Translations under genes and position numbers: made by a program
In this document: in pieces, positions 698-39,269 of the stretch
Layout of the letters: each line of letters starts with the position of its first letter
Numbering within the stretch: the stretch's first letter is position 1
Notes under the pieces: model-generated
Databases searched by the model: none
What the model saw: only the letters and a program-made list of their open reading frames with translations
What the model was told of the DNA's origin: nothing
Source of the DNA: Caldisericota bacterium
Lineage (GTDB): Bacteria; Caldisericota; JANLFM01
Direction of reading: 5' to 3'
DNA: 64,000 nucleotides
Assembly (NCBI GenBank): GCA_024655865.1
Contig: JANLFM010000002.1
Span: 21,647 to 85,646, forward strand

Positions 698-1668
698 CTA
701 ACTTGCTTCCGTGGCTCCTACTGAGGCAGCTAGTTCTTTTACTTCCTCTTTGTGGACGAATAGGGCACAGGGGGACCCTTCTGGTTCCAGTAGATTCTCG
801 CTTTCGCGGATGAGTCGGAAGAAATCGCTGGAAAGGGCCTCCTTTAATGGGGTACCGAGAAGACTGTGCGTTGAGAAACTGGAGACTGGACAAGGAGTGA
901 GAAAGCCTTTGGGAGTAACGTGAGCAAACCCCCTTCCCGCGGAAACGCAGCCCCCAGCGTACTCTTCGTCTCCGGGGGAATGAATAAGGAATATCCTTTT
1001 CTTCTGCCGATATTCCAGCACCTTCTCTCGGAACTGGGCCCGCTCTTTCTGCGTGTGATTGTAACGGAGACGCCCGCAAGCGTTCCTCCAAGGATCAGTT
1101 GGGCCTTCGTTTCCATCACCCGTTTGTAGACTCCCCTACCCCGACGGGAATCGGTTTCCTCTTCTCCACCCTCGAGGCTCAAAATTACTGCCACGTTGTT
1201 CAACTTCTTCAGCTCGGCCAGATGCACCTTTGAAACCGCCACACCATTGGTGAAAACAAGGAAAAAATTCCCGGGAAATTCTTTGATCAGGTTCAGAATA
1301 CCCGGATGCAGGAAGGGCTCCCCTCCAGCGAGGAGAAAGAAAAAGACTCCTAATTCCTTTGCTTCTTTAATGATTTTCCGCCACTGATCTATATTCAGAT
1401 GGGGACGATAGCTTGGTTGGCCCTTCTTCATGGTTCCCACCTGAGCTGCGTAGCACCCTGTGCAGGCGAGATTGCATTCCTGGGTGATACTCAAAATAAG
1501 CATCGGGGGAACAACAAGTCCGTCCTGAAGCAGTTCCCTTCTTTTTTGAGTTGCCCTTTTAAAGGAAAAGAGGAAAGAAGGGAGGTGGAAAAAGTAGCGT
1601 GGACTTTTCCAGAGCCAGAGGGAGAGAATTCTAAGAAGGGTTTTGATATCCAAATTATTTTGTTGCAC
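698..1668 (-). pseudogene. Broken radical SAM/SPASM protein (frameshift plus internal deletion)
   Basis: Two minus-strand frames together encode one protein. The first (1668 to about 1055) has the radical SAM motif CNLACTGC and GGEPFL, and runs through VSVTITR. The second (about 1055 to 698) resumes as KERAQFREKVLEYRQ and holds the SPASM-like GGCVSAGRG and a Cys near the end. The intact paralogue at 54047-55441 has roughly 75-80 residues between the matching TITR and GGC motifs; here there are about 35. So roughly 40-45 codons have been lost and the frame shifted at the same join. A GTG start at 1668 has AAAGG upstream. The protein cannot fold as a full radical SAM enzyme unless this is an assembly error. 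Confidence 0.8.
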
Positions 1669-37043: not shown

Positions 37044-37457
37044 GTGGCACTGGCGCGGGATAAAATTCGGGAGATCAGGTTAAGTAAAGGTCTTTCGCAG
37101 GGTCAGCTGGCGCACCTTCTGGGATATACGCCCTCCACTGTCTCCCGCATCGAACAAGGGGCACTGAAGCCCTCCTTAAAGTTCCTCCAGAAGTTCGCTG
37201 AGGCCTTTGGGCTTTCCCTCTCATACCTGATCGACCCTGCTGAACCAATTTACCTTGATGACAAAGAGGAAGTTGATCTCAACAGGCTTGAGCCGGGGTT
37301 GAGGGACCTTGCTCTTGATAGTGAACTCAGGCGCCTGTTCGGTGTCCAGGACGAGGATATCAAGCGCCTGGCAACCGTCAGGTTCAGGGCGGGAGCCGTA
37401 GACAAGCAGGGCTATCTCAGTTTGCTCCTTTTTCTGCGCAATTTAGACCGAAGGTAA
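37044..37457 (+). CDS. XRE family repressor
   Basis: 137 residues. N-terminal helix-turn-helix (IREIRLSKGLSQGQLAHLLG, YTPSTVSRIEQGALKPSL) of the phage-repressor type, then a C-terminal region (about 70-137) without known motifs. GTG start with GAGGAG upstream. It probably represses its own promoter and perhaps the divergent cassette through the inverted repeats between them. Confidence 0.87.
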   Translation: MALARDKIREIRLSKGLSQGQLAHLLGYTPSTVSRIEQGALKPSLKFLQKFAEAFGLSLSYLIDPAEPIYLDDKEEVDLNRLEPGLRDLALDSELRRLFGVQDEDIKRLATVRFRAGAVDKQGYLSLLLFLRNLDRR

Positions 37458-38123
37458 ATGGGTGCCCTGGAACAGGTTATTCTTGACACTTTAGCTCAAG
37501 CCGGGATTTACGGGCCGCCAGTAAACATAGAAAAGGTTTTGAAGGTCCTGGGCCTAGATGACATATTTATCGATTATTCCAAACCCCCAATGGGGGGAAC
37601 TTCGCTTTTCTTCGACGACCTTAAAAGGAAGTGGCGGATTCGGCTTTTACCTTCTCTTCCCCCTGAAAGGCGGACTTTTGATCTGGCTCATGAGTGCGTG
37701 GAGTACCTGGCCCTGAGGGAGGAATTCAAGGGCCCTCACTATCAGATCAATGAGGGCGCGGCTGAACTGCTTATACCGAGGAAATGGGCGGAAGAATGCA
37801 TCCGAAAGAACGGGCTGGACCTTTTTGCCTTAAAGCGCTTGTTTTCCACAGCTTCATTTGATACCTGCGCATTGAGGCTTCTGCGCCTTTCGCCCTGGCC
37901 CTGTACCCTCGTTGTTGTCACGGAAAATGAAAAGCGGGTGATGGGGAGGAAGAAAAAGGCTGGCCTTTCTCCTGATGAGGAGGTTTTCGTGAACAGGGCT
38001 TTCCGGACACTGACCCCGCTTCTTACATCCAAGGGCAGAAAGTTGCTCAGGTCTTTTCCCATTCCTGACGAGAAAAGGCTTAAGATTAAAAAGGCTTATA
38101 TTTATGTCTGGGATCGCATTTAG
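37458..38123 (+). CDS. ImmA/IrrE-like (DUF955) protein with altered zinc site
   Basis: 221 residues, ATG directly after the XRE stop. The order XRE then ImmA is that of ICEBs1/phage induction modules, where ImmA cleaves the repressor. Here the zinc motif is H78-E-C-V-E82 in place of HExxH, so one His ligand is Glu. NEGAAELLIP, the usual downstream segment, is kept. An Arg/Lys-rich tail follows. Either it is a dead regulator or a variant metal site. Confidence 0.75.
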   Translation: MGALEQVILDTLAQAGIYGPPVNIEKVLKVLGLDDIFIDYSKPPMGGTSLFFDDLKRKWRIRLLPSLPPERRTFDLAHECVEYLALREEFKGPHYQINEGAAELLIPRKWAEECIRKNGLDLFALKRLFSTASFDTCALRLLRLSPWPCTLVVVTENEKRVMGRKKKAGLSPDEEVFVNRAFRTLTPLLTSKGRKLLRSFPIPDEKRLKIKKAYIYVWDRI

Positions 38124-38132
38124 GAGGGGATT

Positions 38133-38360
38133 CTGGAGTACCTTACCGCACAACAATTAGCGATTCGCTGGAATGCTCCCTTGAGGGCCGTTTACGGCAT
38201 CGCTCTGGGTAAACACCGCTTTTCCTCTCTTACCGGTCCCTTAAATATTTACCAAAGGGACAAACGAACAATGTTTTCCCTGGAGGAGGTCATGGAATGG
38301 GAGAAGAAATTGGCCCGGTCAAAGATTCCCCTGGAACTCATAATCAACGAATTCAAATAA
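38133..38360 (+). CDS. Excisionase-like small DNA-binding protein
   Basis: About 75 residues, too short for common ORF cut-offs. The pattern EYLTAQQLAIRWNAPLRAVY...FSLEEVMEWEKKLARS resembles winged helix-turn-helix excisionase/MerR-like proteins. AGGAGGGG lies just after the ImmA stop; the start may be CTG 38133 or ATT 38130, which is uncertain. Third gene of the module. No integrase is in the window. Confidence 0.55.
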   Translation: MEYLTAQQLAIRWNAPLRAVYGIALGKHRFSSLTGPLNIYQRDKRTMFSLEEVMEWEKKLARSKIPLELIINEFK

Positions 38361-38431
38361 AAAACAGGGGCTGCCTGGCGGCAACCCCTGCCATGGGGGA
38401 GGTGGGAAGACAGGCTATTGGCAATAACCTT
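38356..38431 (-). ncRNA. Predicted small RNA with C-rich linker (orphan)
   Basis: Minus-strand transcription unit without a gene. A strong promoter (see 38438-38467) starts it near 38431. The RNA has a 5' hairpin (GGUUAUU-GCC-AAUAGCC, 38413-38429), an open C-rich linker CUUCCCACCUCCCCC, and a terminator: 11-bp stem with GCCA loop (38365-38390) followed by six U. C-rich open loops pair with ribosome sites in Firmicute regulatory RNAs such as FsrA and RsaE. Its 3' end reaches into the end of the excisionase-like gene. Confidence 0.7.
38359..38390 (-). terminator. Terminator of the predicted small RNA
   Basis: CAGGGGUUGCC / GGCAGCCCCUG stem (one U-G pair), GCCA loop, then UUUUUU, on the minus strand. 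No gene ends here on that strand, so it must belong to a non-coding transcript. Confidence 0.8.
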
Positions 38432-38437
38432 GCATTC

Positions 38438-38467
38438 TTTATAGAGGAGAAAAATGATGGTTGTCAA
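38438..38467 (-). promoter_or_regulatory. Promoter of the predicted small RNA
   Basis: Minus strand: consensus -35 TTGACA (38462-38467), 18-nt spacer, -10 TATAAA (38438-38443). No coding frame follows before the terminator. Confidence 0.7.
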
Positions 38468-38525
38468 GAGGGAAGTAAAATTTTTTTAAAAATTTTAACT
38501 TCCTGGCTGGAGCTTGAATAAAAGG

Positions 38526-39269
38526 ATGGAAGCAAGAATTTTGAAATTAACCCCCTCTCTGGTTGATATTTTTGAGTCCTGCCCCAGAAGGTACTGGTAT
38601 ATTTATGAGCCGGATTCTCCTCATGTGGAAAAAAGGGTCTCCTGGCAGCTTTCTTTCGGCAACTCTCTCCACGATGCCTTAAAGGAAATTTACAATCAGG
38701 GCGGACCTCCCCGAGTTTCCCTGGCTTCCCTTCCCGGGATTCTGGAAAAGGTATGGCGCAACGAAGGATATCCCGACGGGGAGCTTGAAAAGGAGAAGAA
38801 AACTTTGGGCCTGGAAATTTTAGAAAGGTACCTGGAAGAGAACCGTTTTCGCTCAGTTTGGACCATTGAGCTGGAAAAACAGTTTACGGCAACCATGGAA
38901 GGCGTTACCCTTTCTGCCCGGGTGGACCGTTTGGATTTGCTCAAGCCTGGACTTTTGATCGTGGACTACAAAACTGGACAGGGGACCTTGAGCGAAAACC
39001 AACTTTACATTTCCTACCTCGTGGTGAGAGCTAACTATCGTTCAAATCAGGACAGGCCGATACGTTTTCTGCTTTTGAACCTGGAGCGTCAGGAAGAACG
39101 GCTGATCGATGTTGAGGAGGAAAAGGCTCTTTCTCAAATTTATTACTACCGTGAGATCAAGGATCAAATTATAAGAAGGGAATTTCCGCCCAATCCTTCT
39201 CTTCCAACCTGTAGATATTGCGAGGCAGTAAAAATCTGCCCTTATGCGCGACAATGGGAAAGGGAGTGA
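38526..39269 (+). CDS. PD-(D/E)XK nuclease family protein (RecB-like)
   Basis: About 247 residues. Nuclease signature: GNSLHDALKEIY, RVDRLDLLKPG and LLIVDYKTG (the D...DxK core). Four Cys suited to a [4Fe-4S] cluster: one in FESCPRRY and three in CRYCEAVKICPYA, as in AddB/Cas4 families. No AddA, AddB or CRISPR genes are near, so it is a lone member. TTG 38514 is an alternative start; neither has a strong ribosome site. Confidence 0.8.
   Translation: MEARILKLTPSLVDIFESCPRRYWYIYEPDSPHVEKRVSWQLSFGNSLHDALKEIYNQGGPPRVSLASLPGILEKVWRNEGYPDGELEKEKKTLGLEILERYLEENRFRSVWTIELEKQFTATMEGVTLSARVDRLDLLKPGLLIVDYKTGQGTLSENQLYISYLVVRANYRSNQDRPIRFLLLNLERQEERLIDVEEEKALSQIYYYREIKDQIIRREFPPNPSLPTCRYCEAVKICPYARQWERE

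Follow-up and report, generated by a model that had tools for sequence, protein, structure and literature searches.

The analysed stretch of DNA (64,000 nucleotides, hereafter the window) comes from the genome of a Caldisericota bacterium and contains a plus-strand row of genes for an XRE regulator, an ImmA/IrrE-like protein, a small excisionase-like protein and a nuclease. On the minus strand, a promoter is followed by a 5' hairpin, an open C-rich stretch and an intrinsic terminator (Table 1). The first-pass annotation had taken this element for a small RNA (sRNA) equipped with a promoter of its own, a C-rich linker and a terminator. The layout, which is read directly, proved to be conserved in all five genomes of the family considered here, i.e., that of the window itself (G000), that of a sister species (G001), G003, and the pair G002 and G004 (together g2). 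The promoter boxes were found as claimed (TTGACA, 18 nt, TATAAA; minus strand, 38467-38462 and 38443-38438). As to the claim that the RNA is antisense to the end of the excisionase-like gene, the overlap exists but involves no more than the U run, which covers the stop codon (38358-38360).

Table 1. Features of the sRNA gene and of its neighbours in the window
Feature	Position	Strand	Basis or remark
-35 box, TTGACA	38462-38467	-	unchanged in nine of nine copies
-10 box, TATAAA	38438-38443	-	TAT unchanged in nine of nine copies
A/T tract upstream of -35, putative UP-like element	38475-38498	-	sequence; G000 and G001 only
sRNA gene, ~73 nt	38359-38431	-	start predicted from promoter, end from terminator
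5' hairpin, GGUUAUU/AAUAGCC	38412-38430	-	folds of copies; leader-shuffle test
Open C-rich stretch CUUCCCACCUCCCCC, predicted seed	38395-38409	-	mostly unpaired, near-invariant
CACCUCC, the anti-SD heptamer of the family 16S 3' end (GGAUCACCUCCUUU)	38398-38404	-	16S tails of G001 and G002
Intrinsic terminator hairpin, 13 pairs (including two G-U pairs with the U run), GCCA loop	38363-38392	-	stem sequence same in nine copies
U run (U6)	38359-38364	-	sequence
XRE (HTH_3) and ImmA/IrrE-like (Peptidase_M78) gene pair	37044-38123	+	convergent with sRNA; syntenic neighbour of the probable ancestral copy
Small helix-turn-helix/excisionase-like ORF (EYLTAQQLAIRWNAPLRAVYGIALGKH...)	38124-38360	+	convergent with sRNA; no Pfam match
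PD-(D/E)XK nuclease gene	38526-39269	+	divergent from sRNA; same place in G001, G002 and G004

The predicted fold of the RNA has a free energy of -32.4 kcal/mol (z = -4.0), equalled by none of 200 shuffles. Terminator-like patterns were no commoner than chance in a scan of the surrounding 2.6 kb, and the promoter scan skips the sRNA promoter, as it requires T at the last -10 position. Pattern scans alone are thus insufficient, and it is the conservation across nine copies that raises the locus above chance. A short peptide that could start from the ATG at 38394, within the terminator, was rejected, since its stops differ between the copies and none is conserved. The element has its own promoter and intrinsic terminator, lacks a conserved ORF and is kept in relatives, which are the features expected of an intergenic small RNA. 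Judging from its sequence, it is with high probability a genuine small RNA gene that has not been catalogued and would be transcribed from the minus strand. The description of the RNA as new agrees with Rfam 15, in which no family fits it at the gathering score (the best relaxed match, E = 2.9, is to an unrelated family), and our literature search retrieved no paper in which small RNAs are mentioned along with Caldisericota or Coprothermobacterota.

Copies and genomic neighbourhood

The five family genomes, which are MAGs classified under Caldisericota or Coprothermobacterota, contain nine copies of the sRNA; G000, G001 and G003 have a single copy, and G002 and G004 three copies each. The earlier label 'orphan' therefore had to be given up in favour of a small multi-copy family with one to three copies per genome. 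In a DNA search of 100 related genomes, strong matches were confined to the four other family members. With a covariance model run on 54 genomes of the phylum and 386 related genomes, the nine copies scored 93-98 bits and everything else below 34 bits, and no convincing relative was found among the 381 genomes outside the family. The weak matches that were read (G013, G020, G027, G050 and others) are terminators or partial matches without an open C stretch plus promoter, and four genomes of other phyla gave weak matches only (E ~1e-4, 29-30 bits, as compared to 93-98 bits for true copies). Among public records, the same 19-mer recurs in MAGs named Caldisericota bacterium A05DMB09 and Coprothermobacterota bacterium LacPavin. 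A lone exact match of the 19-mer in a Bacteroidaceae MAG is not followed by a terminator and was taken as chance, and a 24-nt match in G010 sits at a coding start.

Each of the five genomes, G002 and G004 included, has one copy that is convergent with the XRE gene row. The other flank of this copy is occupied by the nuclease gene in four genomes and by a PfkB gene in G003. The small helix-turn-helix-like ORF follows ImmA in G000, G001 and G003 (orthologues L026 and L027) and is missing at the g2 locus (L031/L032). Two further pairs of paralogues occur in g2, one upstream of the trigger factor gene tig and the other beside a radical-SAM gene. Since the XRE-linked locus is syntenic in all five genomes, and the other copies are found in g2 only, the XRE-linked copy is probably ancestral. 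The existence of paralogues outside the XRE row also means that the function of the sRNA cannot depend on that neighbourhood.

These observations bear on the supposition that the RNA is a cis-antisense regulator of the XRE-ImmA-(HTH)-nuclease row, countering read-through into the nuclease gene. Such a role would be in line with the position of the sRNA on the opposite strand inside the XRE-nuclease row in G000, G001, G002 and G004. However, the same core occurs in paralogues away from this row (next to tig and to the radical-SAM gene), G003 has a PfkB gene where the nuclease gene would be, and the invariant part touches no coding sequence beyond a stop codon, so we regard cis-antisense action as improbable.

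Sequence constraint and folding of the copies

Alignment of the nine copies revealed a core of about 50 nt, GCCUGUCUUCCCACCUCCCC(C/G)AUGGCAGGGGUUGCCGCC(A/C)GGCAGCCCCUGUUUUU, with two variable positions, which differs at one or two positions between copies. Outside the core and the promoter boxes, both the spacer and the 5' leader drift; the spacer is 18 nt long in G000 and G001 and 17 nt in the other copies. The neighbouring genes have diverged strongly: their fourfold-degenerate sites are 21-51% identical among G000, G001, G003 and g2, i.e., saturated, and protein identity amounts to 41-52% for ImmA (between G000, G001 and g2), 60-82% for XRE (G003 included) and 44-67% for the nuclease. The retention of the core and the promoter boxes against this divergence shows that purifying selection acts on both. 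It also concerns the possibility that the element is a small mobile repeat, or a site of binding or recombination at the DNA level, that merely resembles a terminator. While there are three copies per g2 genome, and both strands of the hairpin are invariant, as might be expected of such a site, the -35 and -10 boxes are kept at fixed spacing with the intervening sequence drifted, and orthologous positions are retained across genera. Searches for the sRNA in viral contigs and plasmids gave no matches, and those in phages only chance-level ones. In view of these arguments a mobile or DNA-level element seems very unlikely.

The degree of constraint can be illustrated by comparing 445 kb of G000 with 800 kb of G001, which share only 16 exact matches of at least 40 nt. 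That of the sRNA (78 nt, 38355-38432) is tied with a tRNA for the second longest. The other long matches include four tRNAs, SRP RNA, RNase P RNA and a T-box, as identified by Rfam or ARAGORN, and also an apparent tmRNA end at a contig edge and DNA resembling coding sequence or gene starts, not each of which was classified. By this measure of sequence, the conservation of the sRNA is in the same class as that of tRNA, SRP RNA and RNase P RNA, and such strictness is the surprising part of this family.

Several of these matches deserve mention in their own right. The left end of a G000 contig (L115:1-73, G000:C22) shares 72 identical nucleotides with G001 and resembles a tmRNA 5' end; neither ARAGORN nor Rfam called it, probably because it is cut off. 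The T-box leader (RF00230, 16797-17026, minus strand, 110.6 bits), which is the only other Rfam match in the window besides tRNA, has 44 nt identical in the sister species. In a radical-SAM-like gene (844-1668, minus strand), the window carries next to each other two stretches whose exact counterparts in G001 are separated by about 121 nt more; the window copy thus seems to have lost an internal part with a shift of frame, or else to be misassembled.

Folding covered the whole predicted transcript in eight copies and the leader in the ninth (L032). They share a fold in which a short hairpin at the 5' end is followed by the open C-rich stretch, whose probability of being unpaired is mostly 0.9-1.0 in the eight copies folded whole, and then by the terminator. 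The promoter-hairpin-terminator set, whose presence in relatives had been named in advance as a test of the first prediction, occurs in every relative of the family considered here, with the hairpin kept in position in most copies and varying in sequence. By copy group it reads GGUUAUU/AAUAGCC, GGCU/AGCC or GACA.GCA/UGC.UGUC, with the same GCC or UGUC as the end point of the replacement hairpins. It is supported against shuffled leaders (roughly the 5% level or better) in four copy groups out of five, the exception being the tig-linked pair. The 5' hairpin is thus, by the computed folds, favoured but not invariant. In the terminator stem, on the contrary, both arms are unchanged in the nine copies, with no compensatory change. 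Such invariance is unusual and suggests a second constraint, for instance a protein partner.

According to the computed folding of the nascent RNA, CCCC first pairs with GGGG of the terminator and is freed once the terminator closes. This alternative C-G pairing would suit a cis-regulatory leader, i.e., an attenuator of a downstream gene, and the g2 copies by tig do lie upstream of that gene in the same direction. The other seven copies, however, have as their nearest downstream gene a convergent one on the other strand, which makes attenuation extremely unlikely.

Predicted function and its alternatives

With a confidence that slightly exceeds our doubt, we suppose that the sRNA acts in trans, masking Shine-Dalgarno (SD) sequences by means of the anti-SD mimic CACCUCC and without participation of Hfq or CsrA; its transcription, pairing with SD sequences and targets are all predicted. 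The supposed sequence of events is as follows. A strong promoter of the housekeeping type would drive the synthesis of an RNA of about 73 nt, and the intrinsic terminator would stop the synthesis and cap the 3' end. In the course of synthesis the C stretch would be held by GGGG of the terminator 5' arm, to be released upon terminator closure, so that the mature RNA would expose CUUCCCACCUCCCCC with the anti-SD heptamer of 16S rRNA. This stretch could then pair with G-rich SD regions of mRNAs and block ribosomes. The extra copies may provide a higher dose or place the same RNA under other promoters.

Neither Hfq (PF17209) nor CsrA (PF02599) was matched in any of the five family genomes, the positive controls being detected in both searches, and the GGA motif is absent from the G000 transcript. 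The former result argues against an Hfq-dependent sRNA; the lack of CsrA matches and of GGA in the G000 transcript argues against a CsrA sponge of the CsrB/RsmY type.

Targets were sought in 445 kb of G000 (about a quarter of the genome) and 800 kb of G001 (about half); the gene starts were guesses from a simple rule, a source of noise. For this partial gene set of 335 orthologue pairs, the pairing of the seed with start regions did not surpass that of control seeds in which CACCUCC was kept and the flanks were shuffled (mean -31.3 as compared to -31.6 kcal/mol; mean of the top ten -47.3 as compared to -49.0 kcal/mol). Near-perfect complements of the seed in whole genomes were no commoner than those of a reversed-pattern control. 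As the gene set is partial and seeds of the C-rich, SD-pairing kind need only short matches, this lack of enrichment does not refute SD pairing. Among the sites of the type GGGAGGTG...ATG are those at dhaK (G000 and G001) and at a DUF3795-like gene (G000; -29.5 kcal/mol), and no site in the sampled genes was both exceptional and conserved. The DUF3795-like gene, named by reading (L126, G000:C11, at about 112552, minus strand, leader GGGGAGGTGAGAAGAATG), is among the strongest predicted partners, and the SD of dhaK (dihydroxyacetone kinase, also by reading; L105 in G000, L091 in G001) is unusually long and kept in both species (AAGGGAGGTGAA). The proposal that the RNA pairs with ribosome binding sites in the manner of FsrA and RsaE fits the anatomy, the undetectable Hfq and the CACCUCC motif; the check suggested along with it, computation of mRNA targets at ribosome sites, gave no enrichment of conserved targets over the control seeds in the sampled genes.

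SD pairing alone also leaves unexplained why both arms of the terminator stem are invariant, and this is our main reason for keeping a protein-binding or housekeeping role under consideration. The whole 50-nt core, C-rich strand and terminator hairpin alike, might be recognised by a conserved protein or RNP, which the RNA would titrate or guide. The absence of compensatory changes in the hairpin, a conservation equal to that of tRNA, SRP RNA and RNase P RNA, and the failure to see conserved mRNA targets among the sampled genes would all fit such a role. On the other hand, there is no candidate protein; Hfq and CsrA were not found in the five genomes; the complementarity of the sRNA to 16S rRNA is not significant (12 and 22 of 60 shuffles are as good); and the open anti-SD sequence would have to be a coincidence. 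We assign to recognition by a protein a minor, though appreciable, probability. Equally tentative, or slightly more so, is the idea of a lineage-specific RNA of housekeeping rank, whose near-invariant module would act via a dedicated protein or the translation machinery (e.g., as an anti-SD decoy) rather than on a few mRNA targets.

Comparison with known small RNAs

Sibling sRNAs of Neisseria and cuckoo RNAs of alphaproteobacteria are multi-copy RNAs that expose an anti-SD motif, mostly in hairpin loops, and are commonly Hfq-linked. The sRNA described here resembles these proteobacterial RNAs in its copies and exposed anti-SD; they belong to different phyla, and the comparison was made by Rfam only.

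The C-rich sRNAs offer parallels in anatomy. LhrC of Listeria is multi-copy, acts on translation, does not need Hfq, and binds targets by UCCC/CU-rich motifs in open stretches; UCCC-type motifs are binding sites in LhrC, RsaE, FsrA and RNAIII (PMC4132741). Our sRNA shares with LhrC several near-identical copies and an open UCCC/C-rich stretch. Unlike it, LhrC is 111-114 nt long, has three CU-rich sites and is controlled by LisRK (PMC4132741). In FsrA, RsaE (RoxS) and IsrR of Bacillales, an open C-rich region likewise lies beside hairpins, and there it was shown to bind SD sequences (PMC9410917, PMC4132741). IsrR, in particular, binds its targets by C-rich regions without a need for Hfq, and its terminator is poorly conserved (PMC9410917), in contrast to the invariant terminator stem of our sRNA. 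The unpaired C-rich stretch, a mark of sRNAs of the FsrA/RsaE/IsrR/LhrC type, is present in the eight copies folded whole, and no sequence homology to FsrA, RsaE or IsrR was found; the sRNA is set apart from FsrA, RsaE/RoxS and LhrC by the Rfam 15 models, insofar as each has one.

Such RNAs of uncultured lineages can be detected by a simple scan of two genomes for exact matches. By covariance model the sRNA belongs to no described family, and we regard it as a new family of the C-rich, SD-pairing anatomy. Given its family-wide, tRNA-like conservation and the undetectable Hfq and CsrA, it would be a clean case of a C-rich sRNA acting without the usual chaperones.
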